From NCBI GenBank assembly GCA_964058805.1, contig CAXKVV010000193.1:1-30038 (forward strand): a stretch of 30,038 nt of DNA, in the 5' to 3' direction. A program made the translations under genes and the position numbers. Source of the DNA: Schoenoplectus triqueter (lineage: Eukaryota > Streptophyta > Magnoliopsida > Poales > Cyperaceae). The notes beneath the pieces are model-generated. The model saw only the letters and a program-made list of their open reading frames with translations, was not told the DNA's origin and made no database searches. This document shows positions 14,549 to 30,038 of this stretch, piece by piece. Within the stretch, counting starts at the first letter, position 1; the number at the start of each line of letters is the position of its first letter.

Positions 14549-15341
14549 TGAAAAAAAGTTTTCATTCAATAGAGCATGCTAGAATGATAAAATGTTTTAT
14601 GTTTAAACAACAAAATGTGATTTCTTTTTCCTTGTTGAGTCACAAGCACACGGCTTTAAATTTCAGTGTTCGTATTGAATAAGTGTACTTTGACATCTAA
14701 TATCATGCGCAAAAGATATGGAACAAGAGTCAACAGGAATCATACGTCTTGATTAAAATATAAAGAAAATAATAATTATTGTTAGCATGCAAATCTTATT
14801 TTGTGTAAAAATAGAATTTGTGCTGTTGTGATATGATTCTTGTATTAAATTTAAAATTATATGAAATTTACACATAATACATAAAGTCATAACAATTAAA
14901 AATGTGAAGTGAGTTTAATAGGGAGCTGGTAGGAAGAAATTGCTCTCCAGCATAATGACAAATAAAATTGTTCGGTAAAGATCGAAATTTCATGGCTCGG
15001 ATATATTTTGGTAATAATTTATTTTATATTATTTAATAAAAGATATATTGAAATGCTAAAAATTTTAAAAACCATATAAAAGAATATAGAAATATTTTAA
15101 AATTTATAATATATGTTCTTCGTGAATTATTATTTCCATATAAATGGATTGTGTTGTTTACCCTTGAAAAATTTCAAGGATGAATAGATGAATAAATGAA
15201 ATAAATTGATGATAAATCATAAGAAAGGGGAAGAAGAGAGGGAGCAGTAGAAAGGTGGCCCACTGATCAGGAAAGGTCGCTGCATAATCCCGGAACAAAT
15301 CCATTAGTCCCACAACGGAATGCTAGGCATGAAGTGAAGAG

Positions 15342-15349
15342 TATAAATA
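15342..15349 (+). promoter_or_regulatory. TATA box 1 (TATAAATA)
   Basis: TATAAATACCCC is a good plant core promoter sequence. A 17-bp hairpin begins 25 bp downstream, about where transcription would start. Confidence 0.6.
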
Positions 15350-15373
15350 CCCCGCTATTCTCTATCCACTCAG

Positions 15374-15430
15374 CATGAGTGACACCCAAGAAGATCGAGG
15401 GAGAGAGGAGACCTCTTGGGTGTCACCATG
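15374..15430 (+). promoter_or_regulatory. Long hairpin just after TATA box 1
   Basis: GTGACACCCAAGA (15379-15391) pairs exactly with TCTTGGGTGTCAC (15414-15426). After a bulged A, CATG on each side adds four more pairs. The loop is GA-rich. The arms differ from those of the downstream paralogous hairpin, yet each stem is self-complementary. Confidence 0.8.
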
Positions 15431-15451
15431 TGATTATATCTTTTCTGACAA

Positions 15452-15462
15452 GTGGGACCCAC
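15452..15462. promoter_or_regulatory. TCP-type palindrome GTGGGACCCAC
   Basis: This matches the binding consensus of plant TCP transcription factors (class I GGNCCCAC, class II GTGGNCCC). Six similar sites follow at 15698, 15785, 16646, 16678, 17032 and 17173. Confidence 0.5.
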
Positions 15463-15587
15463 ATGGCATTCCCTTATGAGCAGCTCCAATGACATGGACC
15501 TAGCCTATTTTGTTAAGAAAGCTAACCAACCCGGAACAGAGGTTAAGCATTAATCCCACAATGAAATAATAGGGTGAATGACGAGGA

Positions 15588-15595
15588 TATAAATA
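15588..15595 (+). promoter_or_regulatory. TATA box 2 (TATAAATA)
   Basis: Identical core TATAAATACCCC in the second repeat copy. A 20-bp hairpin starts 28 bp downstream. Confidence 0.6.
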
Positions 15596-15622
15596 CCCCA
15601 CCACCTCCTACTCATTCGAGGT

Positions 15623-15673
15623 GGCTGACCCTCGGGAGATTTAGGAGAGAGAAAATCTCTTGATGGGTCAGCC
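15623..15673 (+). promoter_or_regulatory. Long hairpin just after TATA box 2
   Basis: GGCTGACCC (15623-15631) pairs with GGGTCAGCC (15665-15673). The next eleven positions (15632-15642) pair with 15653-15663, allowing two G-T pairs and one bulged T at 15664. This gives 20 bp around a 10-nt GA-rich loop. Its arms differ from hairpin 1 (GTGACACCC/GGGTGTCAC) in a matched way. Confidence 0.8.
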
Positions 15674-15697
15674 ATTTGATTACATTTTATCTGACAA

Positions 15698-15708
15698 GTG
15701 GGACCCAC
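15698..15708. promoter_or_regulatory. TCP-type palindrome GTGGGACCCAC
   Basis: Exact palindrome in the second repeat copy. Confidence 0.5.
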
Positions 15709-15971
15709 CTGGCAGTCCCTTGTAGATGAATCTAACAACATAGCCTATCTGATGAGTCACCCATGTGACCATTTTCACTGACAGGTGGACCCCACACCTC
15801 AGTGGCCTATTGAAGGAGTCAGAATTGAACCCTAAAAATCTGCCTTTGGAGCTAACCCTAGAAAGGAGCTAAAGCAGTATAATCCCTATGCTACATGAAA
15901 TGATGTCAATGCCAAGCTAGCATTTTGATGCAACTAGTCATGAGAAATTCTAAATGTGATTTTGCTTTCAA

Positions 15972-16063
15972 GGCTGACCTGGTGCCAAAGCTGCGAGCAA
16001 CCACCTAACCATGCTTTGATTTGTGTCAATTACTGATAAGTAGTCAGTTATTTGACCAAGTCA
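15972..16063 (+). repeat. 127-bp-offset direct repeat, copy A
   Basis: It contains GGTGCCAAAGCTGCGAGC and ACTGATAAGTAGTCAGT. The first hairpin stem is reduced to GGTG/CACC. The second, ACTGA/TCAGT around loop TAAGTAG, is intact. Confidence 0.85.
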
Positions 16064-16098
16064 CCCTCATGTTAAGGGATTGAAAGTCAATTTCACAA

Positions 16099-16189
16099 GA
16101 CTGATCAGGTGCCAAAGCTGGGAGCAACCACCTGATCAAGTCTAGATTTGTATTAATTGCTGATAAGTAGTCAGCATTTGATCAAATCA
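16099..16189 (+). repeat. 127-bp-offset direct repeat, copy B
   Basis: It contains a 10-bp stem TGATCAGGTG/CACCTGATCA (16102-16111 with 16129-16138) around the loop CCAAAGCTGGGAGCAAC. A second hairpin, GCTGA/TCAGC, closes around the same TAAGTAG loop as in copy A. Confidence 0.85.
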
Positions 16190-16608
16190 AGCCCTAATGA
16201 ATATCAATATAAGTCTAATTGGTATTTAGTTAGGGTGGTTTCTGCAAGAGAGAGATAATTGGCAGAGACACAGAGCTATAATTGAGATCAGGGATTAATT
16301 CAGAAGGAATAACAGGGTTTATTGGATAAAAGAATTTTTAATTCAGAGAGGCAAGGGTAAAAATGGAATTAAAAATTACAGGGATGATCATCATGAATTT
16401 AGGGATTTTTGGTGAAATTTTCATGATTTTTGGATAAGTGGAGCTATTAAAATAAATTCAGGGAAAATAAAGGCAGAATAAATGAATTAATCAAAGGCTG
16501 AGATTTGATCAGAGCAGTTCTGGGTGCAAGTTGGGGATAACAGCAGCTCTGGGTACAAACTGGGTACAAGAAACACAAGAGGCATAAAATAATCGAAGAG
16601 AGAGGGTG

Positions 16609-16903
16609 TGCCACGTGGCAGCCTCTCATTGGGCCATGTCAGCAAGTGGGCCCCACCCTGGTATGAGTCACTGACAGGTGGGCCCCACCTCAGTGCCACG
16701 TGGCAGACAGCCAATGGGCCACCTCATCACCCTAATGCCACATGGCACCATACCAGTGGTCCACTACACTCCCTCTGTGCCACACGGCACAATCAGAGGA
16801 GGCCACCTCATTCAGCCTATGCCACATGGCATAATACCACAGGGCCATCTCACTCTGTTAATGCCACATGGCATGATCCTACAAGGCCACCTCAGCAGTT
16901 GTT
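16609..16903. repeat. 42-bp tandem repeat with palindromic TGCCACRTGGCA core
   Basis: Core words start at 16609, 16694, 16736, 16778, 16820 and 16862. The last five are exactly 42 bp apart; the first gap of 85 bp fits two diverged units. Each unit carries TGCC-NNNN-GGCA, often TGCCACGTGGCA (a G-box-like palindrome) or TGCCACATGGCA, followed by a GGGCCACCTCA-type word. Because 42 is a multiple of three, the short reading frames across it look repetitive but are not evidence for a protein. Confidence 0.9.
16646..16688. promoter_or_regulatory. Pair of TCP-type palindromes GTGGGCCCCAC
   Basis: GTGGGCCCCAC occurs at 16646-16656 and again at 16678-16688, 32 bp apart, within the first diverged unit of the 42-bp array. 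Confidence 0.5.
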
Positions 16904-17172
16904 AAGCAAGTCATTAATGCTAAAGGGGAGTGATTAATCTAGCAGCCAATCAGAACATGCCAACTCAGCCTAATTAGCCCTAATACGTGTACTAATCAAT
17001 TGCTATAAGCCTAGACTCTGTAATCTTACAGGTGGGACCCTATTGTCAGGATTATGAGTCAGAGGCGCATAAGCTGTCATGTGAACCAAACTCATTCAGA
17101 TAAAGCCACAATTCAAATAAAAAGGAAAGAAAGGAGGTATGCACCTGGCCCTTGCGCATTATCTCTATGACT

Positions 17173-17183
17173 GTGGGCCCCAC
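17173..17183. promoter_or_regulatory. TCP-type palindrome GTGGGCCCCAC
   Basis: The last of seven such sites in about 1.7 kb. The preceding one at 17032 is only a half match (GTGGGACCC). Confidence 0.45.
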
Positions 17184-17430
17184 TTTGTTGCGGCTCACAT
17201 GCGCCGAGACCGGCCCCCCCGGAGGCGCTTTCTTCTTCCCTTCCTCCTCTTCTTCTTTTTCTTCCGCGCGACTGGCCGAGAGGCGCCATGGTTGAGTGGG
17301 TTAGAGATAGCGGAATCCTTCAAATTCATTCGATAGGAAGGTGCATATCATTGATTAGAACATGTATCAAGCATGAATTTTAAGGAATATGAAAAGAATA
17401 AAGAGAATTGCGCTGAGGCAGTCAATGAGA

Positions 17431-17640
17431 TCAAAATTGGGATTGACCTTTGCAAGCTTGTAAAAGTGAAATTAATTGAACAAGCAGCTTTCTTTCACTA
17501 AGGCGATGCTCTCTGGATGCAAAGATAGTACCCTTTGAAGCCTTGCAATAGCATTCCACTAGATCACCAATCGGGTAAAAGGCAGCAAGCTCAAATTCAA
17601 TAGTAGGGAGTAGAGACAATGCAAAGAACAAGGTGGATCA
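17431..17640 (-). pseudogene. Antisense coding-like fragment, possibly captured host exon
   Basis: The minus strand reads a 66-residue frame with protein-like composition (for example IEFELAAFYPIGDLVECY, then a Lys/Arg-rich amphipathic stretch), unlike the low-complexity frames nearby. An AAAG|GTCAAT junction that resembles a splice donor follows LLQACKG. The family is not recognised. It could be an exon fragment transduced into the retroelement, or chance. It has no signal sequence or domain that I can name. Confidence 0.25.
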
Positions 17641-18068
17641 ATTACTGAGTCTAATAGGAGGCTAAGAGAGCTTGCAATTGGATGAATTGATGAGTAAGGT
17701 AATGGCAATGGTAATTGAGTAAAAATCGGGCTCAAATGGAGAAATGGAGATCTCTCACTATACAGAAGCTTTTATAGTGTTTCAGAGAGCTCTCTGGTGA
17801 TTGCCAAGAGTGGAGAAGGTTCTAGAACAGTCCAGAAGTGAGTGATGGTTAGTTAATATGGAGAGTGGCAAAAGAGTGAATAAAAGACCTTTGTAACTAA
17901 CTCAAACGGCTTAACCACTGACAGCCAACTCAATTGAGCAATTAGAAAGCACAAATACATCCTAACCATTGATCTAAACTGAACCAAGGGTGGAGATTGA
18001 ATCCAAGCCGTGATCCAAGTGCTAATCACCCAACCAATCACCATTTAGCAAATTACACACTTCTAGCC

Positions 18069-18076
18069 TATATAAA
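18069..18076 (+). promoter_or_regulatory. TATA box 3 (TATATAAA)
   Basis: CCTATATAAACTGAA is a strong plant-type TATA box, preceded by promoter-like sequence with CCAACCAATCACC at about 18028. If this is the LTR promoter, the start would be near 18100, giving a leader of about 4.3 kb before gag. Confidence 0.5.
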
Positions 18077-18603
18077 CTGAATTGGAGAACACAGAAAGGG
18101 TCTCTTGGAGAAGCTAGAATATCTTGACAGTTGAGAGAGAAAGCCAATTGATAGCCAGCAAAGAAGAATCAAGAAAGAACAAGAAAGCAATTGGATTAAT
18201 TGATAGTAGACTTAGTCTCTCAATTCAATTCATTCTGCAGCTTCTAGGAGATCCAGTCATCATCTACAAAGCTTGATTAGGTACTGCCATGAAATCCAAA
18301 GTGTATTTGAGAATGATTTTGTAGAATTGTATAATAAGCTTGATTCTTGCATTGAACCGCATAATAATCCTCTATTTTTCATTTGATTCAAATGCTATAA
18401 CATTGATTCTTATGCTTTCCTTGCATTTCTGCTTTTCAATTTCTATTTTCTTAATTGAATTTCATGAATTACCAGCATTATCTTCAAATAAGCCATGAAT
18501 TTCAGATAAACAAAAATTTGAGCTTTTCCGGTTTAGAGTTTCATGTAATTGTGTTGATCTTCTTCTACATTTCTCATCGTGTCATCTAATTGAATTGGTA
18601 GTA

Positions 18604-18692
18604 GAGTTATATAACTCTCCCATTTCACTGATCCGAGTCGACAATCTGTCTAATCTTGAATCGATAGAAGGATAACTTAATCCTCTCGATTC
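18604..18692. repeat. 14-bp palindrome and a 13-bp hairpin
   Basis: GAGTTATATAACTC at 18604-18617 is a perfect palindrome. At 18658-18692, GAATCG, AG and AGGAT pair with ATCCT, CT and CGATTC around loop AACTTA, giving 13 pairs with three bulged bases on the left arm. Confidence 0.7.
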
Positions 18693-18793
18693 CATAGCTT
18701 AGATGATAATTTGGAAACATACGATTCATCCAAGATACAAGGAAGCACCATAATTGAAGGTTAATTGGCGTATAACGATTGAAACAAACATGG

Positions 18794-18982
18794 CCGGTAC
18801 TGTGCCGGGTGACATCGAGACCAATTGGGATATACACGACAAATTCAGAAAAAATTGAACTTGCAATCATGATTAGAATGCATAGACGATCAATAATGGA
18901 AGGTTAATTGCAAGAATCATTGATTAATTAGGTTGAATTACCGATTAGAAACTCAATTGGTATCAAACCGGGACTGTACCGG
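18794..18982. repeat. Two CCGG hairpins with shared ACTGT loop
   Basis: CCGG-T-ACTGT-G-CCGG at 18794-18808 and CCGG-G-ACTGT-A-CCGG at 18968-18982. Each lies in one of two loosely repeated units that also share GGAAGGTTAATTG-type and CAATTGG-type words. Confidence 0.6.
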
Positions 18983-19479
18983 AAAATGGTACCCTTGTAC
19001 ACGATGAAGCACCGCATTGATCTTCGATCAGGTGTGGCAGAAAGTTTCTTGGCAACAAGACGACACTACTGGGTTCATCTGATCGGAAGGACAAGGCTCC
19101 GGTCGCCGGCAACAACCTCTAGCGCGAATCTCGGCAAGGTGGTCAACAGAACAGTCAAAGAAACGGGTGCGCACGAATATTAGCGCATAGACACGAGTAT
19201 TGATGCGAATGCAAATCTTGGAATAAATCGGACGCTTGGGATAAGATGATATTTTTAAATAAAGATCTAGAATGGATCTGGGCCTTACATCTCATACGGT
19301 TTAATCTTGAGGTGAATCCAGCGGCCCAAATAAGAACGAAGTTAAATGAAAGATGAGCGCCAATCTTGGAGCAGATCCAACGGCCCAGATTAGGCTCAGT
19401 AATTAAATAATAACAGAATAGTAATAGTAAAGAATAAATAAATGATTTGAAAATGTTCTTGAACTCCAAATTGACTCAA

Positions 19480-20700
19480 ATTTGTTTCTAAAATTTTCTT
19501 ATTTTTCATACTATTTTTCTATGCAATAATATTCTAGTTTTAAAAATATAATCATGATAAAACAATTTAAAAGCAAAAAACATTACCTATATTGATATGT
19601 TTGACCTAATTTTGACTTGTCATTTTAAATACTATAAAAATTCCAAAAATACAAATAAAAATCATAAATAATAATTAGATATATTTTAGTGATTTTTCAA
19701 GTGATTTTTCCATGAAATAATAATGATGATAATAATATACTATAATAAATAATGAGATTAGCTATATTCTTTGATAAATAAAAATATATGAATAATAATA
19801 GATATTATATTGATATTTTCTTGATATCTTTCTGTAAGAAAAGAATAATGAAAATAAATAACACAAAATATACAAAAATATACTACTATGGTAATAAATA
19901 GTAAAATACATTTTCTTTTATAATAAAGAATGATAATATAGTTTTATAATATGAATTGTATTTCTTTTGTTATTTCTATACAAATATATAATAAAAATAC
20001 TTTTGATGAATAAAATGAAATAAAAATAATAGTTGTAATAAAAGTATAATAAATTTCATCTCTTATGACTATTTTCAACTAATAATAAAAATCTTATACT
20101 TTTCTATAGATAATAAATAGAAATAATAAAAATAGATATAATAAATAGTATAATAAATAAGATAGAATATTTGTAATGATTTCTTTTAGCTATTATAGAT
20201 ATAAAGAAAAAAAATATAATAATAATAATAATAAAAAAAAATAAAAAAAATAATAATAATAAAAATATAATAATAATAAAAATAGTATAGCTAATCATCT
20301 TTTAATTTTGTAAATAATTATTACATAATGAATAGTATTACAACATAATAGAATATAATAACAAAATTCTATTACTTTAGCTATTATAAGCATTTTGAAA
20401 ATATAAATAAAAAACATAGCCATCTTATTTTCTATTATTTTTTGTAAGTGATTTTCTACAAAATAAATAGAGTTTAGAAATAATAAAAATAAAAATTCTA
20501 CTATTTTGGCCATTATAAAAATCCCAAAAATATTAATAGCTACCCATTTTCCTATTATTCTTGTAAATAATTTTCTACATAGAGTTTAAGGAATAAAAAT
20601 AATAATAATAAAAATAATAATAGTAATAATAATAATAATAATGATAATAAATGTATCTTCATAATAAAAATAATAATGAAAGATATTATATAATAGACTT
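19480..20700. repeat. 1.2-kb A/T low-complexity tract
   Basis: Almost entirely A and T, with AAT/ATAATA microsatellite stretches, especially 20217-20280 and 20598-20650. Short phrases such as CTATTTTGGCCATTATAA recur (near 20350-20520). No gene is present; long Phe/Ile runs in reading frames are artefacts. The tract separates two GC-richer, structured parts of the LTR. Confidence 0.85.
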
Positions 20701-20726
20701 TGTGCATTTTAGAAATGAATAAGTAT

Positions 20727-21146
20727 GCTCACATAAGGAGTGTAGAGCCACATATAAATATTTGCACACATGATATGACATTTAGAATGGTACGTCGAGA
20801 CAGGAACATCTTGACATGAGATGAATAAAGCTTTGATAGCAGCATGAAGAAATACGTCGAGACAAGAACATCTTGACACTTGATGAAGAATAATAAGATA
20901 CGTCGAGACAGGAACATCTTGACGTGAGATGAATAAAGCTTTGATAGCAGCATGAAGAAATATGTCGAGACAAGAACATCTTGACACTTGATGAAGAATA
21001 ACCAGAGCTGCGATATTAACATGGAGATGTGCGTCGACTCTGAAGAAGAAGAACATTATGATGTCCTAGATAGGTGACATCTTAATGACTCGCTGCCATG
21101 AGCAAGTAACTCATGATTGAATACGCTCACACAAGGGGTGTAGGGC
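20727..21146 (+). repeat. Hairpin family with 3-side bulged A (two copies)
   Basis: At 20727-20748 GCTCACA pairs with TGT-a-GAGC around loop TAAGGAG. At 21125-21146 GCTCACA pairs with TGT-a-GGGC around CAAGGGG, with one T-G pair. Both copies keep the same single bulged A. Confidence 0.65.
20791..21000 (+). repeat. 108-bp compound tandem repeat
   Basis: The phrase TAYGTCGAGACARGAACATC starts at 20791, 20853, 20899 and 20961. Alternate copies are exactly 108 bp apart (62 + 46), and the intervening text (GATGAATAAAGCTTTGATAG) repeats at the same period. Confidence 0.9.
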
Positions 21147-21212
21147 AACATAGTAATTTTGCACAAGTAATGCAACACATAGAATGATTAGTTGAGACAA
21201 GAACATCTCGAC
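20794..21212 (+). repeat. Five GTCGAGA hairpins with conserved loop CARGAACA
   Basis: GTCGAGA/TCTTGAC stems close 8-nt loops at 20794-20815, 20856-20877, 20902-20923 and 20964-20985. At 21191-21212 the stem is GTTGAGA/TCTCGAC: a G-T pair becomes G-C and a C-G pair becomes T-G, while the loop is unchanged. The third copy extends to nine pairs (ACGTCGAGA/TCTTGACGT). Confidence 0.85.
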
Positions 21213-21308
21213 GCTCGTTGAAGAATGACCAAAGCTACGACATCAGCATGGAGAGATATGTCGACTTTGAAGAAGAAGAACATTACGATGTCCGAGCGAA
21301 GTGACATC
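21060..21308 (+). repeat. Two GATGTC/GACATC hairpins
   Basis: GATGTC (21060-21065) pairs with GACATC (21076-21081), and a second copy at 21287-21292 pairs with 21303-21308. Both have 10-nt loops that start with C and end with GT, while the loop centre varies. Confidence 0.75.
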
Positions 21309-21344
21309 TTAATGACTCGGTGTCATGAACAAGTAATTCATGAC
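21097..21344 (+). repeat. Two CATGAR hairpins with conserved loop CAAGTAA
   Basis: CATGAG/CTCATG at 21097-21115 and GTCATGAA/TTCATGAC at 21322-21344 enclose the identical loop CAAGTAA. The loop-closing pair changes from G-C to A-T with both sides altered. The second stem is two pairs longer. Confidence 0.85.
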
Positions 21345-21362
21345 CATTTGAGCTGGCAAGAC

Positions 21363-21951
21363 TGAACTCGTCCGTCGATGAGTTTATCTCCTGGCTCATT
21401 TCCCGAGAATGTGAGATTGAATCGGTCTGTTGGTAGATTCATCCACAAAACAGTGAATGTGAACCGTTCTGTAGGTAGGTTCCTTCACTAACACATGCCT
21501 CAATGTTGAACTGGCCCAGCGCTTCAGGTTTGACATTGTGTGCAATTGTGTTTCCTAGGTTTATGAATCGGCTTAGTGCTTCGAATTCATGATCTAGAAG
21601 ATCGGTGAGAAGAAATACGTGGGCCATAGCCACCCTTCTCCTGATTCACCAACCTCAAGATCAACCGGCTCAGTGCTTCGAGTTGTATTTTGTGTGATTG
21701 GTTGTTGACTAGTTAAGATTGAACCGGTCTGTTTGTAGGTTTATCTTCTAGATCAACGGAGGTCGAGTCGGTCTGTATGTAGACTCACCTCAAGCCCCCT
21801 ATGAAGAGATTAACCTGGTCTGTTGGTAAGGTTACATCTCGAGGTGGCATGGACTGAACCGGTCTGTTTGTAGGTTCGTCCCCCATAAGACAAAACCGAT
21901 CTGTTTGTAGGTTTGTCTTCCATAGATTGAACCGGTCTGTTGGTAGGTTCA
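21363..21951 (+). repeat. Nine hairpins with conserved loop GGTCTGTTKGTA (type A)
   Basis: Stems and positions: AACTC/GAGTT (21365-21384), GAATC/GATTC (21419-21440), GAACC/GGTTC (21461-21482), GAACC/GGTTT (21721-21742), GAGTC/GACTC (21765-21786), TAACCT/AGGTTA (21811-21834), GAACC/GGTTC (21856-21877), AAACC/GGTTT (21893-21914), GAACC/GGTTC (21929-21950). Loops are 12 nt and nearly constant; the first copy has a 10-nt loop because an extra pair forms. Several stems differ by paired substitutions, and the sixth has an added T-A pair. Spacers between copies are not conserved. Confidence 0.9.
21504..21685 (+). repeat. Three hairpins with loop GGCYYAGYGCTTC and a bulge (type B)
   Basis: Copies lie at 21504-21535 (nine pairs), 21563-21590 (seven pairs) and 21662-21685 (five pairs). 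The 13-nt loop is conserved. The loop-closing pair is T-A in one copy and C-G in two, and all three leave a single unpaired purine next to it on the 3' arm. They are interspersed among the type A hairpins. Confidence 0.85.
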
Positions 21952-22276
21952 TCTTCCGTAGATCCATTTTTATAAACTTAGACGACCACTTGCCCATCTC
22001 TTAACTATACTATTTGCTTCTCTCTTTCAAAGATCCAGAGGTGCCTCGAGGTTCGTAGCCCAGGGTAATTAACGGTGGGGGCTTGCGCCCACCGGAATCT
22101 ACAAGAACTCACAATCACTAAAAACCCCCTGAATGTGCATCCAAATAATCTCTAAACGGCAGAATCGGCCGACACCCAGCAGATGCACGCTCGGGAGGGA
22201 TCTCCGTGTCCTTCTTCCGCAGAACCCATCGCCCGGCGGCGGTGCGGCGGCGCGCGAAAAAGGGTCGCACAGGATC

Positions 22277-22294
22277 TGGCACGCCCGGTGGGAC
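22277..22294 (+). promoter_or_regulatory. Primer-binding-site-like segment
   Basis: TGGCACGCCCGGTGGGAC begins with TGG, the complement of a tRNA CCA end, and lies 5 nt after the putative LTR end. Very similar text follows the LTR in other plant Tat elements (from memory). Which tRNA would prime is not determined; it only partly fits the 3' end of a plant tRNA-Arg. Confidence 0.65.
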
Positions 22295-22399
22295 CTAGAT
22301 TCTCCTCTTATCTCTGAAAGAGAGAGGCAAATAGAATACTTAAGGGATACAAGTGGTCTTCTATGTGCTAAAATGACTAATGATTTTCAAGTATTTTTT

Positions 22400-22410
22400 T
22401 GTTTTGCAGG
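22400..22410 (+). promoter_or_regulatory. Possible 3' splice site before gag
   Basis: A T-rich run followed by TTTTGCAG|GA ends 3 nt before the gag ATG at 22413. A candidate donor, AGG|GTAATT, lies at about 22064-22070. Splicing between them would remove the primer-binding site and the upstream ATGs at 22133 and 22373, which open an overlapping frame ending at 22777. Confidence 0.4.
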
Positions 22411-22412
22411 AA

Positions 22413-25400
22413 ATGGCATTCTTTGGCAACTTCAACCTTGCTCCCTACACCGTCACTCCTGCTCAGAGCCCAGAGGGCAAACTATTCATGTTCTTCGGGA
22501 CCATCCCGCAAGAACTTACCATCTACGGCCCAGCTCCAGTGGCCGCCTTCACTCCCGCGACCGTCCAGATCTCTATTCAGGACGAAGAGGAGGACTCGAT
22601 CACCCTAACTCCCAAGGGGATCTCGAACAATGTCATGGCCTCTCCTACTGCTTCCCCAAAGAGGAGAAGGCGCCCGTCCAAGAGGACAAGCCCAAAGGCA
22701 GCAGCCCGAACTGCCCGCGACTCTCAAGCATCCAGGAAGAGGGCCCTGGATGCATACCAGAACCAGCTGGTGGCTAGGCCAGCTATCCCAGTCTCTAACA
22801 AATTCACAGCCCTCCGCATAGTGGCCAAGAACTCGGCCACGGGCCAGCTCCGCCAGGCATGGGAGGTGCCTAAGCCCACACCTCGCCCAACTCAAAGGCC
22901 TCAGCGCCGCCAGGACAAACCCCAAACCCCTGCAGAAGCCATCTACAAGGCTCACAGGGCCCTCAAACAGAGGAGAAGCGTTAAAAACGCTAGGTCGAGA
23001 CAGTACGTCTCCCGCCCTAACCAATCTCAAGGCTTGGCTCAGCCGCGAGTCATTGCCTCCACTCCGAACACAAGGAGGTCTATACCAAAGGCAACACCTA
23101 GCACCCAGCAGGTGTGGGTCCCAAAGGGATCCCAGCCGACGAAACCCCAGTCTCAAACCCGGCCCAGCAAGGCCAGCAGGTCCAACGCTCCGCCCGAGAG
23201 CGTGTTCAGCCGCTTAGGTCAGAAGAGTGTATTCAGCCGATTGGGCTCGAGAATACCACTCAATAGTCTAAAAATAACTGCCCCTGACCAAGCAAAGAAG
23301 AAGAGAAGAACCGCTCGTTACGAAGAGCACTTCTCGGTCAACACCATCAGTATAAGCTACGATACTGATCCAGACACTGATGGTGAGGTGAATATGGTCC
23401 AGGATGACCAGTCCCCGCCTAATCAAGCTCACGTCACCAATACCAATAAGAATAATGGTAGAAAAGGGAGACCACCCAAGAGAGTCAACCCCGAAGGCAA
23501 CAGCAGGGAAGGGGAAGACCACAACGAAAACCCTGACTTCTTTGATAATGAAGATGACGTTGAAACACGTCCCGAAGTGCCTATCGATGAAATTGAAATA
23601 CTAAAAGGCCACATCGAGGCACGGGATGAAGAGCTGATTAGGCAACGGGAGCTAATCGCTACCATGCTGAAGCAGAATGAAGAATTGATTAAGGCGGTCA
23701 AATCGTTACAAGAATCACAAGACGCCAATTTCAAAGCTGGTAGCTCCCGTCAAGAAGGGGTCCACAGTACCAAAAGCAATCATAAGGGAAAACAACCTGT
23801 CGATTCTAAACCCCATCCACATAGAACCATAGAAGTGGAGGCTGAACCAACGGGAATATCCCGGAAGGAGATTCAAGCCATGATTGCCCAGCAAATGCAA
23901 ATAGCTGGAGGTGGATACGCTATCCCTCCTGTCAAAAACTGTGGACATCCATACCCTGCCATATACGATTTAGAAGAATATCCTAAAGGGTATGTGATCC
24001 CCCGCTTCAGGACCTTCTCAGGGGAGGGCAATAAAGACCTGAACCCCGAACAACACCTAGCCCATTTCGTAGCCTCGTGCGGCAACACGGGCGGCAATGA
24101 TGCACTGTTGTTAAGACAATTCCCTCAGAGCTTGGTGGGAACCGCCTTTCAATGGTACTATTCGCTGGAAAACAACAGCATCAGGACCTGGGACGAGATG
24201 GCGGACTCGTTCAGGGCACGTTTTGTCATGGTGTCTGACAAGATAAACATAGCCGATCTGGCAAGCACTAAACCCAAGAAAGGGGAGTCAATGACAGATT
24301 TTATCAATAGATGGCGGAACCTCAGCATCAAATGCGACCGCACATTAACCGAAGATGAGGCCGTCAACCTAATCATGAAGAACATTGACGGGTGGATGGG
24401 CATGCTTCTTGGTGTGACAAAGGTCAACACGTTTAAAGACTTGCTCAGATCGGTATCCAATATGGAAAGGATGTCACCACACACCGTGCCGAACTTCATG
24501 AATAATAGGCCGCAACGAGGAGCCCGAGCTGAAACCAAAGTGACATTCAACTCGTTAAAGGATAAGATGGTTGCCAATGCAGACACCCAAGGCGGCAGTA
24601 GTAGCATAAATGGCAACAATTATAATAAGGGACCCAGGCCCAACCCAGGAGGGAGTTCACGGAGTTTTGAATCCCTTAAACAAAAGAAATCTAGACCATA
24701 CTCCTTCAGAAAAGATAAAGTTGCCCAAATCTTCAGAGGGGCACTGAAGAATGGCCTAACCCTGCCGGCCAGTAAACGCCCGGAAGATGCCGATAAATCG
24801 GACGAACCCAACTTCTGCCCATACCACAGAATAATAGGGCACTCAATCGAAGATTGCTGGGTCTTCAAAGATTGGGTCGAGAAGGCGTATAAAAACGGTG
24901 AAATTACTTTACCTAAGGGGTTCTTGCAAAGCCCATCAGCCCATGAGCAGGCCAACACGATCTCTCATGAGGAAGAGAAAGTCCCGGGCCAGTCATGCGA
25001 AGACCAGGAAGAACAATGGACTACGCACCTATCGAAGAAATCAATTAAAATGCTTAAAGCCCTTAAGAAAGAACCTGGCATGAAATGGAAAGACGATATC
25101 ACACCAGTGGTCCCACCAAAACCCAGGGTATATTATAAGGTGGACCAGAGCCAAGACCAGGTTCTTAAGAAGAAAAAGAAGCATAGAAATAACAAGTCCA
25201 GAAAGAACAAGATTGAAGAATATGAGCAGGGCAGTCCCGAGGCGATCACCCTTCAACATTTCATCTCCAAAGAAGACTGGGAGAAGTTAACCCTAGGTCA
25301 AAACGAAGAAAATGTAGATGAAGAAATAAATAAAGAAGAAAGCGAAGAGATCTGGGGTGCTTCGTGCAACATGGTATATTCTTCTCACGACGAAGATATG

Positions 25401-28400
25401 CCAACATTAGAGGAGATGTTCTTCCCAAATGATGAAGGAGAAGCAAGCACCTCTGGGACCAAAAATGAAGAATGCAAAGCCGTGCTCCGGTCCGGGACTT
25501 ATATACCTGAGAGACAGGCTCCCAAGGATTCCGATAAAGGAAAGGATAAGGCCCTGAATAAAGGTAAAGAGGCCGAGAACCTAAGCAAGAACCCAGAAAA
25601 GACCCGGTCGACGGGCGAAGAATATAATGTGTTGGCACATCTGCGTAAGATCCCAGCGCTATTAAGCATATTTGACGCGTTGATGATGTCACAAGACCTA
25701 AGGGAGGTACTAATCCAGGCCTTGCAAGATCCTGAGAAGTACAAGTCATACTTCGTAGAGCAAAATATGCAAGAAGCCCTATTCACCGCCAAACGGGCCG
25801 CCTGTATAAATTTCACAGACGATGACCTCCTAATAGGCACCGTCGACCATAACCGCCCGCTATATATCACCGGAAACTGCGGAGGGCAAAAGATTGGCCG
25901 CATCCTGGTCGACGCAGGGTCTTCGATCAATATTATGCCGCTTAAAACCCTAAAGACCATCACCTTAGATGTGAAGAACTTATCTGATGAAAAGGTGATT
26001 ATTCATGGCTTCAACCAAAACTCCCAAAAGGCCCTGGGAGCTATAACTTTGAACCTGCAATGCGGAAGCTTAAAGGCGCCTACTAAATTCTATGTTATTG
26101 ACGCTGAAACCTCTTATCGGGCGTTGCTGGGTCGCCCGTGGCTTCACAGCAATCAGGTCATACCCTCTACTCTGCACCAGTGCCTGAAATATATTGAGAA
26201 TGGTAAGCAAAAGAGAATTGACGGAGATGTCAAGCCATTCGGGGTGCATGAGATTAAGTTCAATGACGCCCAGTATTTTCTGCCTAAATCCGCTGTGGCG
26301 CCGAGCCGGCCAATGACAAAAGCGGGTCAGAAACCCTTTAACAAAGGCCCTAAATTTGATACTTCATCTGGAGAAGAAGAAGAGGTCAAATTTAACATTA
26401 AACCCCGAGGCGCTCGAGCCCAAAGACCCGGAAGAAAGTCGGGTGAAGAAGCAACCTTCCGCTTCAAACAGGTGGCTGCGTATAAGGCCCAAATAAAACC
26501 GAGCGAAATCAATGCAAGTGATTCTGAAGAGGAGGTCATTTTCAATTTTAGGCCTGCCAACACCCCTCAAATTCAGATCATAGAGGCAACTTCAGGAGAA
26601 GACTCCGAAGATTCTAACAACTCGGGCGATACCACCTCGGGAGAAGAATCTGGCCATGATCGTCAACCCTGGGAAGAGGAGTCTGACGAAGAGATCATCT
26701 ATCACATCCTCAAGAAGCCATATAAAGGGCCCGAAACAGATAATGAAAGCGAGGAGTCATTTATGATCAACGCGGGACCCGGTAGCGGAAGGGATAACCC
26801 GGTTAGGCCAAGGCCTATAAATGAAGAACGCTCATGGCGGGAAAATTTCGAAGGTCGCGTCTGGAATGCGATCGACGAAATAAGGCACCAAGTTGAAAAT
26901 AATAGAAGAGAGGTGTCTGAACAATGGGAAGTGATGCAGGATATCAAGACGCAACACAATGAAATCATGGTAATGATTGAAAACCTGCAAACCGCGATTT
27001 ATAACTCCGAGCTACTCAAGGAGGTGACGAGCGAACCCCGTTCTGGGACCCCCGAAAGACAAGCACCCGATAGCGGCAAACGGGTAATTGTAATAGTAGA
27101 TGAATCAAAGGGGGAAGAAACGAAAGCTAAACAACCGACCGTCATGCAAACTCTTAAGGTCAAGAAGAGTAAACCATACTCTTTTCTGAGAAATAAAACA
27201 GCTCGGATATTTGAACAGGCCCTAAAGAATGGATTAACACTTCCCGTATGTAAGAGACCCGCTGACATAGAAAGAGCCGGTGAAGGCGAATTCTGCCCTT
27301 ATCATCGCATATTGGGTCATACTATTGAAGAGTGTTGGGTATTCAAAGACCTAATAGAAGAAGGGCATAGAAACGGGACAATCCAACTCCCGAAGAGCTT
27401 TCAACAAGACCCAGCTCCGCATAACTTGAATAACAAAGGCAAAGGGGTGGCTTATACGATCTCGCACACTCCCGTACCTAGTAAACCTAAGGCTGCGAGA
27501 CGTAAGCCGATCAAAGAAATCTACCGCTCCAACTCAGTCATGAACATTGAAATAGAAGAAGAGATGGCAGCGCTGGAGATTACTGTGGTTCCCGAAAGGC
27601 ATTTTAAAGACCTTATACCAAGGGAGGTGAATCACATCCAAACCCTAAAGACCTTTGTTGTGCCGGCAAAGGTAGAGCGCCTCAAAGGGAAAACTATCAT
27701 CCATAAGGCTATAATTTTCTATCAGAGTGATTCGACCCAGTCTCTGAAGAATCCTGATCACAACACTTGGAAGAAGTGGGTGATAGAACAAGAGTCAGAG
27801 AATGCAACGAGCGGTGACGTTGCATCTCATCCCTTTGGAAAGGAGCTATATAAATTGGCAAAAAGGGCAAAATGTCTGAGAGACATATCCAAGGCCGAGG
27901 CCAAGCGCTTCGATGAACTCTGGAATGGCGGCCAGAATAAAGTCCTAGGCCTGGATGGCAAAATAAAATATACCCGGGGGCTAGGGTATGACTGCGATGA
28001 TGCAGCATGTTTTGAAGGGTCTCTCAACGAGTACCGTATGAAAGAGAGCTGTTGTATGACTTCTGTTGAGATGCCGGACAATGAAACAGAAGAGGACAAT
28101 GCCCCGGTCCTGAAAAATGCTTTGAAACAGCTAGAAAAGGAGCCTAATACGGTCGATGAGTTAGCTGAAATCAATCTGGGGACGGAAGAAGATCCACGAC
28201 CAACTTTCATAAGCGCGTCATTGCCAGAAGAAGTGGCTGACAGGTTGAAGACATTCCTTAGAAGCTATATGGACTGCTTCGCTTGGAGTTATAAAGAAAT
28301 GCCTGGATTAGATCCCAACGTGGCGGTCCATTATTTGAAAATTGATCCAACCTTCAAGCCGATTAAACAAGCGCCGAGGCGGATGAGAATAGAGCTCGAA

Positions 28401-30038
28401 GAAAAGGTCGTGGAAGAGACAAAGAAACTCATCGACGCCGGCTTTATACGGGAAGAAGAGACGCCAGAATGGGTGGCTAGCATTGTCCCGGTTAAAAAGA
28501 AAAATGGGCAAATCCGCATTTGCGTGGACTTTCGGGACTTGAATAAGGCGTGCCCTAAAGATGATTTCCCGCTCCCAGTAACTGAAATTATAATTGACCA
28601 TACATCCTCCTATGAAGTCTTCTCCTTCATGGACGGTTATGCGGGCTATAATCAAATTAAAATGGCGCCAGAAGATGAGAGGCATACGGCATTCCGCACG
28701 CCGATTGGCATCTATTGTTACAAAGTCATGCCGTTTGGGCTGAAAAATGCAGGTGCCACCTACCAACGGGCGATGACGAAAATATTCGATGATCTGATCC
28801 ACAAGATAGTCGAGTGCTATGTGGACGACCTAGTCATCAAGGCCATGTCATATGAAGAACACCTCCAATATCTTGAGGTCGTTTTCAACCGCCTGAGAGA
28901 ACATGCACTCAAATTAAACCCGTTGAAATGCGCATTCATGGTATCATCTGGTAAATTTCTGGGGTTTGTAGTACGCCACAGGGGAATTGAGATAGACCCG
29001 GGCAAGATCAAAGCAATAACTGAACTATCCCCGCCAAAGAATTTAAAACAATTGCGATCTTTGCAAGGGCAATTGGCGTACATCAGGCGGTTTATAGCCA
29101 ATCTATCGGGTAAAATCCAACCCTTCACCCGGCTGACTAAGAAGAACATCCCGTTTAAGTGGGATGGCGAGTGCCAGCGAGCCTTTGAAGAAATCAAGGC
29201 ATATCTACTCAACCCTCCAGTGTTGGCGGCGCCCATACCCGGGAAGGAGCTCATTCTATACACGACCGCCCTAGATGGATCCTTGGGAGCCCTGTTGGCA
29301 CAAGAAAACCAGGATGGAAATCAAAATGCGCTATATTATCTAAGTCGCATGATGGTAGGGGCAGAACACGGGTATTCACCGATCGAGAAGCATTGCCTAG
29401 CCCTAATCTTCGCGGTGAAGAAATTGAGGCATTATATGTTAGCCCACAAAATCATTTTAATATCCAAGGTGGACCCTCTCAAGTATCTGATGACTCGGCC
29501 AATGCTGACGGGGAGGCTGGCCAAGTGGGCTATCATCCTCACTGAATTCGACATCACCTATACACCGCAAAAGGCGATCAAGGGGCAGGCGCTAGCAGAT
29601 TTCTTGGCTGCACACCCGATTCAAGATGACTCCCCATTAAAATGTGACTTTCCTGACGAGGAAACTCTACATGTTGAAGAAGGAGACCCTATATGGGAGA
29701 TGTACTTTGATGGTGCTTCTTCAATCAAGCCAATCGCGGGCCCGGGAGTCCCAACTGTGCGAGCTGGCGCAGGACTAGTCTTCGTAACCCCGGAGGGCGG
29801 GATAATACGACATTCTCTAGCTTTAACTGAACCATGTACAAATAACGAAGCAGAGTATGAGGCACTCATCGCCGGACTAGAGCTTTCATTGGAGCTGGAA
29901 ATCAAGGCTATGCGTATCTTTGGGGATTCACAGCTGATAATAAATCAGATAATTGGCGAATACAAGGTCTTAAAGCCGGAACTAATACAATATCACCAGA
30001 AGGCCATGGAACTAATGAAGAAAATCCCGTACGTGTCC
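22413..30038 (+). CDS. gag-pol: Tat-type gag-pol polyprotein, 3' end outside window
   Basis: One frame of 2,542 codons without a stop; I read every codon line by line. Order by residue: Lys/Arg-rich N-terminus (83-112), SVFSRLG twice (263-278), coiled coil (391-436), Retrotrans_gag-type capsid (about 527-690, with AFQWYYSL near 581), CHHC knuckle (802-815), aspartic protease (VDAGSS, catalytic Asp 1167; ALLGRPW near 1240), acidic and coiled spacer with a second knuckle (1628-1641), reverse transcriptase (Asp 2074; YVDD 2136-2139), first RNase H, and second RNase H (Asp 2433, Glu 2479, Asp 2505). In the first RNase H, two of three expected acidic positions read Thr 2285 and Lys 2352; Glu 2325 is kept. 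Gag and pol are fused without a frameshift. Integrase should follow beyond the edge. It acts in cytoplasmic particles, copying element RNA into DNA. The N-terminal 390 residues match nothing I recognise. Confidence 0.93.
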   Translation, partial: MAFFGNFNLAPYTVTPAQSPEGKLFMFFGTIPQELTIYGPAPVAAFTPATVQISIQDEEEDSITLTPKGISNNVMASPTASPKRRRRPSKRTSPKAAARTARDSQASRKRALDAYQNQLVARPAIPVSNKFTALRIVAKNSATGQLRQAWEVPKPTPRPTQRPQRRQDKPQTPAEAIYKAHRALKQRRSVKNARSRQYVSRPNQSQGLAQPRVIASTPNTRRSIPKATPSTQQVWVPKGSQPTKPQSQTRPSKASRSNAPPESVFSRLGQKSVFSRLGSRIPLNSLKITAPDQAKKKRRTARYEEHFSVNTISISYDTDPDTDGEVNMVQDDQSPPNQAHVTNTNKNNGRKGRPPKRVNPEGNSREGEDHNENPDFFDNEDDVETRPEVPIDEIEILKGHIEARDEELIRQRELIATMLKQNEELIKAVKSLQESQDANFKAGSSRQEGVHSTKSNHKGKQPVDSKPHPHRTIEVEAEPTGISRKEIQAMIAQQMQIAGGGYAIPPVKNCGHPYPAIYDLEEYPKGYVIPRFRTFSGEGNKDLNPEQHLAHFVASCGNTGGNDALLLRQFPQSLVGTAFQWYYSLENNSIRTWDEMADSFRARFVMVSDKINIADLASTKPKKGESMTDFINRWRNLSIKCDRTLTEDEAVNLIMKNIDGWMGMLLGVTKVNTFKDLLRSVSNMERMSPHTVPNFMNNRPQRGARAETKVTFNSLKDKMVANADTQGGSSSINGNNYNKGPRPNPGGSSRSFESLKQKKSRPYSFRKDKVAQIFRGALKNGLTLPASKRPEDADKSDEPNFCPYHRIIGHSIEDCWVFKDWVEKAYKNGEITLPKGFLQSPSAHEQANTISHEEEKVPGQSCEDQEEQWTTHLSKKSIKMLKALKKEPGMKWKDDITPVVPPKPRVYYKVDQSQDQVLKKKKKHRNNKSRKNKIEEYEQGSPEAITLQHFISKEDWEKLTLGQNEENVDEEINKEESEEIWGASCNMVYSSHDEDMPTLEEMFFPNDEGEASTSGTKNEECKAVLRSGTYIPERQAPKDSDKGKDKALNKGKEAENLSKNPEKTRSTGEEYNVLAHLRKIPALLSIFDALMMSQDLREVLIQALQDPEKYKSYFVEQNMQEALFTAKRAACINFTDDDLLIGTVDHNRPLYITGNCGGQKIGRILVDAGSSINIMPLKTLKTITLDVKNLSDEKVIIHGFNQNSQKALGAITLNLQCGSLKAPTKFYVIDAETSYRALLGRPWLHSNQVIPSTLHQCLKYIENGKQKRIDGDVKPFGVHEIKFNDAQYFLPKSAVAPSRPMTKAGQKPFNKGPKFDTSSGEEEEVKFNIKPRGARAQRPGRKSGEEATFRFKQVAAYKAQIKPSEINASDSEEEVIFNFRPANTPQIQIIEATSGEDSEDSNNSGDTTSGEESGHDRQPWEEESDEEIIYHILKKPYKGPETDNESEESFMINAGPGSGRDNPVRPRPINEERSWRENFEGRVWNAIDEIRHQVENNRREVSEQWEVMQDIKTQHNEIMVMIENLQTAIYNSELLKEVTSEPRSGTPERQAPDSGKRVIVIVDESKGEETKAKQPTVMQTLKVKKSKPYSFLRNKTARIFEQALKNGLTLPVCKRPADIERAGEGEFCPYHRILGHTIEECWVFKDLIEEGHRNGTIQLPKSFQQDPAPHNLNNKGKGVAYTISHTPVPSKPKAARRKPIKEIYRSNSVMNIEIEEEMAALEITVVPERHFKDLIPREVNHIQTLKTFVVPAKVERLKGKTIIHKAIIFYQSDSTQSLKNPDHNTWKKWVIEQESENATSGDVASHPFGKELYKLAKRAKCLRDISKAEAKRFDELWNGGQNKVLGLDGKIKYTRGLGYDCDDAACFEGSLNEYRMKESCCMTSVEMPDNETEEDNAPVLKNALKQLEKEPNTVDELAEINLGTEEDPRPTFISASLPEEVADRLKTFLRSYMDCFAWSYKEMPGLDPNVAVHYLKIDPTFKPIKQAPRRMRIELEEKVVEETKKLIDAGFIREEETPEWVASIVPVKKKNGQIRICVDFRDLNKACPKDDFPLPVTEIIIDHTSSYEVFSFMDGYAGYNQIKMAPEDERHTAFRTPIGIYCYKVMPFGLKNAGATYQRAMTKIFDDLIHKIVECYVDDLVIKAMSYEEHLQYLEVVFNRLREHALKLNPLKCAFMVSSGKFLGFVVRHRGIEIDPGKIKAITELSPPKNLKQLRSLQGQLAYIRRFIANLSGKIQPFTRLTKKNIPFKWDGECQRAFEEIKAYLLNPPVLAAPIPGKELILYTTALDGSLGALLAQENQDGNQNALYYLSRMMVGAEHGYSPIEKHCLALIFAVKKLRHYMLAHKIILISKVDPLKYLMTRPMLTGRLAKWAIILTEFDITYTPQKAIKGQALADFLAAHPIQDDSPLKCDFPDEETLHVEEGDPIWEMYFDGASSIKPIAGPGVPTVRAGAGLVFVTPEGGIIRHSLALTEPCTNNEAEYEALIAGLELSLELEIKAMRIFGDSQLIINQIIGEYKVLKPELIQYHQKAMELMKKIPYVS
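24684..24923 (+). repeat. Gag zinc-knuckle domain, copy 1 (residues 758-837)
   Basis: An 80-residue block with PYSF, ALKNGLTLP, CPYHRIIGHSIEDC and WVFKD landmarks. The knuckle is C-x2-H-x4-H-x4-C, a CHHC variant usual in Tat gag, and is expected to bind element RNA. It lies after the capsid, where a nucleocapsid domain belongs. Confidence 0.85.
27162..27401 (+). repeat. Gag zinc-knuckle domain, copy 2 (residues 1584-1663)
   Basis: Same length as copy 1 with no gaps; by hand count 50 of 80 residues are identical. The CHHC ligands, ALKNGLTLP and WVFKD are all kept. It sits between protease and reverse transcriptase, preceded by a second coiled coil (about 1480-1533) and a repeated RSGT..PERQAP phrase also found at 1027-1037. 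Confidence 0.85.

Follow-up and report, generated by a model that had tools for sequence, protein, structure and literature searches.

The window, the whole 30,038-bp stretch of DNA analysed (contig CAXKVV010000193.1 of the Schoenoplectus triqueter assembly GCA_964058805.1), contains a long terminal repeat (LTR) of 7117 bp at positions 15155-22271 of the + strand (TGTTTACCC...GGGTCGCACA), whose edges were set from a sister copy on contig C404 that has both LTRs. It is the 5' LTR of an element that runs past the window end. The sister copy is complete, measuring 29,156 bp in total with LTRs of 7,258 bp (from coordinates); these begin with TGTTTACCC, finish with GGGTCGCACA and are 99.9% identical over the pieces compared, and the insertion carries the target-site duplication CAGAA on both flanks, a TG...CA LTR pair with such a duplication being the mark of an LTR retrotransposon. 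Five nucleotides past the window LTR lies a putative primer binding site (TGGCACGCCCGGTGGGAC, 22277-22294, + strand), read in the sequence from its position and its TGG start. A polyprotein frame then stays open from 22413 to the contig end at 30038 (+ strand), in which Pfam gave protease matches that were weak and below the curated cut-off, followed by RVT_1, RT_RNaseH and RVT_3 (3.4e-12), 28107-30038. These domains comprise a reverse transcriptase, a Ty3-type RNase H and an additional RNase H-like domain, the combination that defines Tat elements, and an excerpt of PMC5348765 gives this dual-RNase-H order as a feature of plant Tat elements. Because of this domain order, the host element of the array described below is likely to represent a giant Tat-like Ty3/gypsy family, and the view of the initial annotation that the structure sits in a retroelement is thus borne out. 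Ogre elements carry an extra ORF ahead of gag; here the frame from 22413 holds ~1,150 codons ahead of the weak protease match with no separate ORF seen, no Pfam Gag domain was matched in the polyprotein, and its first 1,100 amino acids had no Pfam match.

The best organism-named protein match to the polyprotein came from a sedge, Carex rostrata (79%), and metagenome proteins reached up to 99% identity with part of the query covered. Four plant-type reverse transcriptase proteins (P0023, P0046, P0069 and P0115) are filed under Klebsiella and Serratia and likely reflect plant contamination of bacterial assemblies. The polyprotein frame also contains two CX2HX4HX4C motifs, at 24816 and 27294, which look like zinc knuckles by pattern only. 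The segments around them (24816-24857 and 27294-27335) are similar to each other, one lying before and one after the protease match, and apparently arose by internal duplication of the polyprotein.

No part of the array is more than 915 bp from the 3' end of the LTR. The initial annotation had described it as nine hairpins with one fixed loop and covarying stems; the array is present at the stated coordinates and with matched stems, and the shared loop was overstated. The exact loop GGTCTGTTKGTA occurs in five of the nine (loops at 21424, 21726, 21817, 21861 and 21934), three others carry the variants GTTCTGTAGGTA (21466), GGTCTGTATGTA (21770) and GATCTGTTTGTA (21898), and the ninth, h0, has a 10-nt loop, GTCCGTCGAT, unlike the others. 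All the stem pairs that it named were found (GAACC/GGTTC, GAATC/GATTC, GAGTC/GACTC, AAACC/GGTTT and AACTC/GAGTT), together with the extra T-A pair of one copy (TAACCT/AGGTTA). The system is moreover larger than was described, since a one-base bulge, a covarying outer stem and a second hairpin type with another loop (B1-B3) had gone unmentioned. Eight of the nine hairpins share a common motif, consisting of an outer stem, the bulge, a 5-bp inner stem and a loop of 11-12 nt with the consensus G-N-TCTGT-NN-GTA. The bulge is on the 5' side in most hairpins and on the 3' side in h8, h2 having two single-base bulges, and the outer stems (3-6 bp) covary too, as in AAGAT/ATCTT, GAGGT/ACCTC, AAGAC/GTCTT and GGAC/GTCC.

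Along the + strand, h0 (21358-21390; GAACTC/GAGTTT, loop GTCCGTCGAT) contains the AACTC/GAGTT hairpin of 21364-21385 and an outer GAC/GTC that is interrupted by one base in the window. It is followed by h1 (21411-21446; GAATC-GGTCTGTTGGTA-GATTC, outer stems GAT/ATC and GTG/CAC) and h2 (21452-21489; GAACC-GTTCTGTAGGTA-GGTTC, outer stem AGTGAA/TTCACT), and then by the three hairpins of the second type, which have the loop GGCYYAGYGCTTC in common: B1 (21502-21537; 11-bp stem, loop GGCCCAGCGCTTCA), B2 (21563-21590; stem ATGAAT/ATTCAT) and B3 (21662-21685; stem CAAC/GTTG, loop core GGCTCAGTGCTTC). The 3' part holds h6 (21715-21747; AAGAT-t-GAACC-GGTCTGTTTGTA-GGTTT-ATCTT), h7 (21759-21791; GAGGT-c-GAGTC-GGTCTGTATGTA-GACTC-ACCTC), h8 (21806-21840; GAGAT-TAACCT-GGTCTGTTGGTA-AGGTTA-c-ATCTC), h9 (21851-21881; GGAC-t-GAACC-GGTCTGTTTGTA-GGTTC-GTCC), h10 (21887-21919; AAGAC-a-AAACC-GATCTGTTTGTA-GGTTT-GTCTT) and h11 (21923-21955; AGAT-t-GAACC-GGTCTGTTGGTA-GGTTC-ATCT). 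Most spacers are unrelated, as the initial annotation had it, with the exception of the last three hairpins, which form a 36-37 bp tandem repeat.

A covariance model, the search that the initial annotation had proposed, recovered eight of the hairpins in the window at E values of 6e-10 to 1.3e-7 and the ninth, h0, at only E 0.87; beyond the window h0 was found at E 0.0067 in 7 of the 12 other loci searched, and h0 is a diverged relative of the eight-hairpin motif. The array varies in size, from 8 strong matches in the window to 18, one of them partial, in L105, a copy of the older type in which a block of ~four hairpins is repeated, and the number of TATA-proximal hairpin units differs among subfamilies through tandem duplication. 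Across the genome, 419 sites match one array 25-mer with at most 3 mismatches. Two array copies lie ~1 kb apart both in L010 (contig C1014, 13331 and 14591, inside one 3.6-kb stretch) and on contig C435 (1035 and 2019). A lone genomic loop match, L063, was rejected as an array member, having neither an array nor stem arms. Rfam covariance models gave no match at E<=1 in window positions 15000-22500, in keeping with the earlier statement that no named motif is alike. A search of 15155-30038 for kissing partners of six loop forms returned no complementarity beyond 7-8 nt, and the 7-mer complementarity counts there were lower than for shuffled loops. Upstream in the same LTR (20794-21212), five more hairpins of the form GTCGAGA-CARGAACA-TCTTGAC (7 bp including one G.U) sit in diverged 108-bp and 150-bp repeats, and in the last of them the wobble has moved to a different pair (GTTGAGA/TCTCGAC).

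Folding energy alone is weak evidence for structure here, because another part of the LTR folds alike and sliding windows do not separate the array. The array region reached -199.8 kcal/mol on the + strand (z -4.2) and -176.9 kcal/mol on the - strand (z -5.2; 20 shuffles each). Positions 15155-16355, in the 5' part of the LTR, fold equally strongly (z -5.1 and -6.3 per 600 nt, + strand), and in 42-nt sliding windows on the + strand the array was not singled out (mean z -0.23 vs -0.15 for the rest of the LTR). The 15155-16355 stretch contains diverged direct repeats and may be another structured region.

Covariation, by comparison, is strong evidence. We collected 141 distinct rows from 894 occurrences in 108 stretches, chosen by loop letters alone, and in these the inner pairs were standard in 97-99% and the outer pairs in 67-84% of cases, compared to 32-51% overall when the partner strand was slid. 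A second alignment of 31 rows was hand-picked for distinctness from the 44 stem types, out of 110, that occurred two or more times. Of its 310 pair cells 91.6% were paired, a somewhat flattering value because some of the 13 omitted stem types pair poorly in the outer stem. These 31 rows held 62 double-changed cells, compared to 18.8 in shuffled alignments (none of 500 reached 62) and 3-8 in slid ones; the covariation score was 0.571, with 0.279 for shuffled and 0.06-0.18 for slid alignments. Two weaker measures separated the rows less from the shuffles: double changes in 9 of 10 pairs vs 6.4 (reached by 16 of 500), and 19 further pair types vs 17.2 (reached by 98 of 500). The slid control is the better one, because relatedness inflates the shuffles. 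Across the array the loop letters are more uniform than the stem letters.

To follow the same hairpins between copies of the LTR, 148 fetched copies and the window were aligned (149 in all), of which 138 were counted after dropping 11 second LTRs presumed to belong to the same element; the rows L013 (the window itself), L026 (cut by a contig end), L063 (no array) and L168 (a 78-bp stub) were dropped before the counts. The copies are a non-random sample, in which L009-L038 are best matches to the window, 36 of the 40 copies L045-L084 were selected through an exact 25-mer match in B1, and the later ones are matches to L071, L104 and L123. Pairing was retained in 98.5% of 11,993 pair cells over the 138 copies, compared to 28-47% with slid partners, so that loss of pairing in most other copies, named in the initial annotation as what would refute a selected structure, did not occur. 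On a tree built from spacers only, the ratio of lineage-level to private changes was 54/153 in stems and 165/289 in spacers (Fisher p=0.0098), so that lineage-level changes, set against private ones, are scarcer in stems. Taken together, the covariation over slid controls, the conserved stems and the retained pairing agree with the earlier proposal that the loop motif with its compensatory stems behaves as a selected structure.

Two Watson-Crick states, each present in at least two copies, were seen at four pairs, three of which have a G.U intermediate: h8 (CG/TG/TA in 93/43/2 copies), h9 (AT/GT/GC in 86/5/46) and B1 (TA/TG/CG in 17/112/8). In the fourth, the closing pair of the h0 loop, 73 of 138 copies have C.A, unpaired; C.A is also found at an outer h0 pair, in 15 of 138. 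Because G.U stands as the intermediate in three of the four switched orthologous pairs, template switching alone, the alternative that the initial annotation had raised, is disfavoured. Double changes among the stem events comprise one lineage-level and two private cases. The private stems GAATC/GATTC, GAGTC/GACTC and TAACCT/AGGTTA were kept while their loops changed, and in many older copies the h8 stem reads TAATCT/AGGTTA, with a wobble. Lineage-level changes away from Watson-Crick pairs gave 22 G.U, 10 A.C and 4 other mismatches, and private ones 50, 41 and 16. Such counts suggest that the array acts on the sense strand, and the lineage-level G.U excess rests mostly on B1. As proof of RNA the strand asymmetry was rejected, being 10 vs 8 once B1 is removed.

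In six separate hairpins the loop varies from copy to copy in a parallel manner, between an 11-nt type (GTTCTGTAGTA) and a 12-nt type (GGTCTGTTGGTA); each of the six hairpins retains its own private stem, and the inserted loop bases differ between hairpins. A 12-nt length and a G at position 2 are both absent from all six core loops in 46 of the 138 copies, where the loops are mostly GTTCTGTAGTA or GATCTGTAGTA. Copies with 1, 2, 3, 5 and 6 long loops number 1, 11, 28, 1 and 50, the states with one and five long loops thus being seen in one copy each, and because these states exist the change comprised at least five steps. L104, the sole copy listed as (0,1), is without most of h9, whose loop is unreadable there. 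Loops h1 and h2 went from TAGTA to TAGGTA, and h1 further to TTGGTA; h7 went to TATGTA, h8 via TAGGTA to TTGGTA, and h6 and h9 to TTTGTA. Ten indel columns are shared by at least three copies, and the six 12-nt loops, which make up 72 of 536 nt, account for six of these columns, one per loop (binomial p=7.6e-4, with columns treated as independent). Parsimony on a midpoint-rooted tree placed one internal-branch length change in each of five loops and two in h7, with terminal-branch length changes in h6 (1), h7 (2) and h8 (1).

The midpoint root leaves the direction of the loop change unfixed, and the order from 11 to 12 nt was taken from private divergence on the terminal branches, by which the copies with 11-nt loops are likely the older and those with 12-nt loops the younger. 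The median terminal branch was 0.0171 in the 46 copies with 11-nt loops, fell to 0.0140 and 0.0066 in two large groups of intermediates, and was 0.0 in the window's group (25 copies with six 12-nt loops, five with G at position 2), whose near-zero branches are partly due to its having been fetched as best matches to the window, which does not apply to the intermediate groups. Terminal branch and loop state correlated at a Spearman coefficient of -0.46, and a smaller set gave the same order. On this order, G later spread over loop position 2. The identity of LTR pairs agrees weakly with this age order: 99.3 and 99.4% over ~870 bp in two older-type elements (one of them 99.75% over 1.2 kb further upstream), 100% and 99.6% for two intermediate pairs compared over 0.8-0.9 kb, and 99.75-99.9% over 2.4 kb in the younger-type C404, C33 and C68, with 98.8% in C394. 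The h6 loop passed from GTTCTGTAGTA to GATCTGTTTGTA, which is also the loop of its neighbours, with GAACC/GGTT arms in common and no intermediate seen, and could have been converted by neighbouring hairpins; the other loops were hardly acquired in this manner.

As for placement, the initial annotation had suggested a retroelement leader. That placement is not supported: the array is inside the LTR and ends in the window 12 bp upstream of a TATA-like TTTTTATAAAC (21967-21977, + strand). The promoter position is uncertain, and a leader position may still apply, because this box is absent from likely older copies, which have GTGAA in its place, and the box was rejected as a marker of promoter placement since it is not conserved in them. 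Among 16 copies, the 11-nt group has GTGAA, the next groups GTGAA, GTGTA or ATGAA, and the younger copies ATAAA, an order that is not strict and that runs roughly as if a TATA box had been strengthened along the lineage (GTGAA to ATGAA to ATAAA). If the TATA-like box marks the start site, the array falls in U3 and the genomic RNA has it at its 3' end; it may then be promoter-upstream U3 DNA that enters RNA only via the 3' LTR. An excerpt of PMC3601003 states that the U3/R/U5 borders of LTRs require RNA data.

Covarying stems imply that a single-stranded form is under selection, and parallel loop differences imply a reader of the loops that itself changed; together they point to selection on both structure and loop. 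We infer that the active form is RNA, with the sense strand used and a factor binding each loop. With moderate confidence, and on comparative sequence evidence, we propose that the sense RNA of the element would carry the array as a docking platform with many sites for one trans-acting, loop-reading factor. A candidate would be the capsid/nucleocapsid region of the element, with its CX2HX4HX4C motifs, or a host RNA-binding protein. Such a factor would bind each loop, and several sites would sum to selective capture, export or packaging of the element RNA; if its preference moved over time and each hairpin adapted in turn, this would explain loops that move in step with stems that are merely paired. 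Given a start site at the TATA-like box, the platform would be present only in the 3' LTR part of the RNA, at its 3' untranslated end. Counting against the proposal are the folding of the - strand (z -5.2), the sliding windows that do not separate the array, the two weaker covariation measures, the C.A states of h0, the dependence of the G.U excess on B1, the loop-length changes on terminal branches, the negative Pfam result for Gag and the loss of the TATA-like box in likely older copies. A bolder and distinctly tentative version is a self-recognition code, in which an RNA-binding protein of the element itself would meet the same loop 'word' in up to 18 hairpins and the passage from 11 to 12 nt would be a rewrite of that word, made in one hairpin after another; if true, the RNA of each younger subfamily could be told from that of its older relatives while the stems, which only need to pair, drift privately.

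Unlikely, in our estimate, is a DNA-level U3 enhancer, in which a host transcription factor, probably an AC-box MYB, would recognise the inverted repeats upstream of the TATA-like box as its sites. The closeness of the array end to TTTTTATAAAC in the window and the variable number of TATA-proximal units between subfamilies fit this idea, as does the presence, in hairpins with GGTT 3' arms, of GTAGGT, the complement of ACCTAC, an AC-box-like motif of MYB factors. A cis-element of Tto1 is reportedly repeated in the tobacco LTR promoter and linked to MYB. A 13-bp cis-element in the Tto1 LTR promoter, known from a title cited in PMC8656106, was taken as the precedent. However, h1 (GATTC), h7 (GACTC) and h8 (AGGTT, shifted by the extra A) lack GTAGGT in nearly all copies and are nevertheless paired, so that the identical recognition letters expected in every repeat of a Tto1-like MYB enhancer are not seen, and a double-stranded DNA site predicts conserved letters rather than compensatory changes in inner and outer stem pairs. 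Less likely still is a different role as RNA, in which the many hairpins would make the transcript end compact and thereby help it to use its poly(A) site, to stay stable or to evade RNA silencing, with no specific loop-binding factor; the hairpins are dense, those of the B type are interleaved with another loop, and the array is at most 915 bp from the LTR 3' end, but this leaves unexplained both the uniformity of loops over stems and the parallel loop differences. Least probable is the absence of function, with template switching, in repair or in reverse transcription, keeping the quasi-palindromes perfect and gene conversion among units making the loops alike, for although the abrupt h6 loop change, the tandem duplication of TATA-proximal units and the few double changes (one lineage-level, two private) would be expected of it, the h1, h7 and h8 loops changed within private stems (h7 with its own letters), so that a conversion tract would need to fit within 12 nt, three switched pairs went through G.U, the stems are conserved relative to spacers at the lineage level, and private changes freely break Watson-Crick pairs (41 A.C, 16 other), which constant self-correction would forbid.

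To our knowledge, little is known of the cis-acting RNA signals of plant Ty3/gypsy elements, and a few narrow queries of the open-licence literature (titles and abstract starts) returned no hairpin array of this type in LTR elements. The many copies within one genome record a structured element changing stepwise, and the parallel loops would offer a handle on the letters that a factor reads, through which the packaging or export specificity of plant retrotransposons would become testable.

Among known systems, the U3 elements of Tto1 and Tnt1 are primary-sequence elements. They resemble the array in that cis-elements are located in the LTR promoter (excerpt of PMC8656106) and differ from it in that the array has covarying stems and preserves private letters. 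RNA structure within or next to LTRs is also found in the stem-loops of long retroviral R regions and in the PPT hairpin of Sire, which are described in an excerpt of PMC3601003 as single structures, as opposed to the present array with one loop motif. Tat and Ogre elements share with the host element the reverse transcriptase, RNase H and second RNase H-like domain, the giant size and the very long LTRs; Ogre measures 16-25 kb with LTRs of 1.9-6.5 kb (excerpt of PMC6431247), whereas the complete copy from this sedge host exceeds both with its 29,156 bp and 7,258-bp LTRs, and the excerpts of PMC5348765 and PMC6431247 do not mention a hairpin array. The nearest functional analogue of the proposed docking array, with no common descent claimed, would be the 3' UTR of alfalfa mosaic virus, a linear stem-loop array with several independent coat-protein binding sites (excerpt of PMC9414508). 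The two share a stem-loop array plan, but the viral hairpins are flanked by AUGC, whereas ATGC occurs once in 21355-21960 (by eye), and in the LTR array it is the loops, not the spacers, that are alike.
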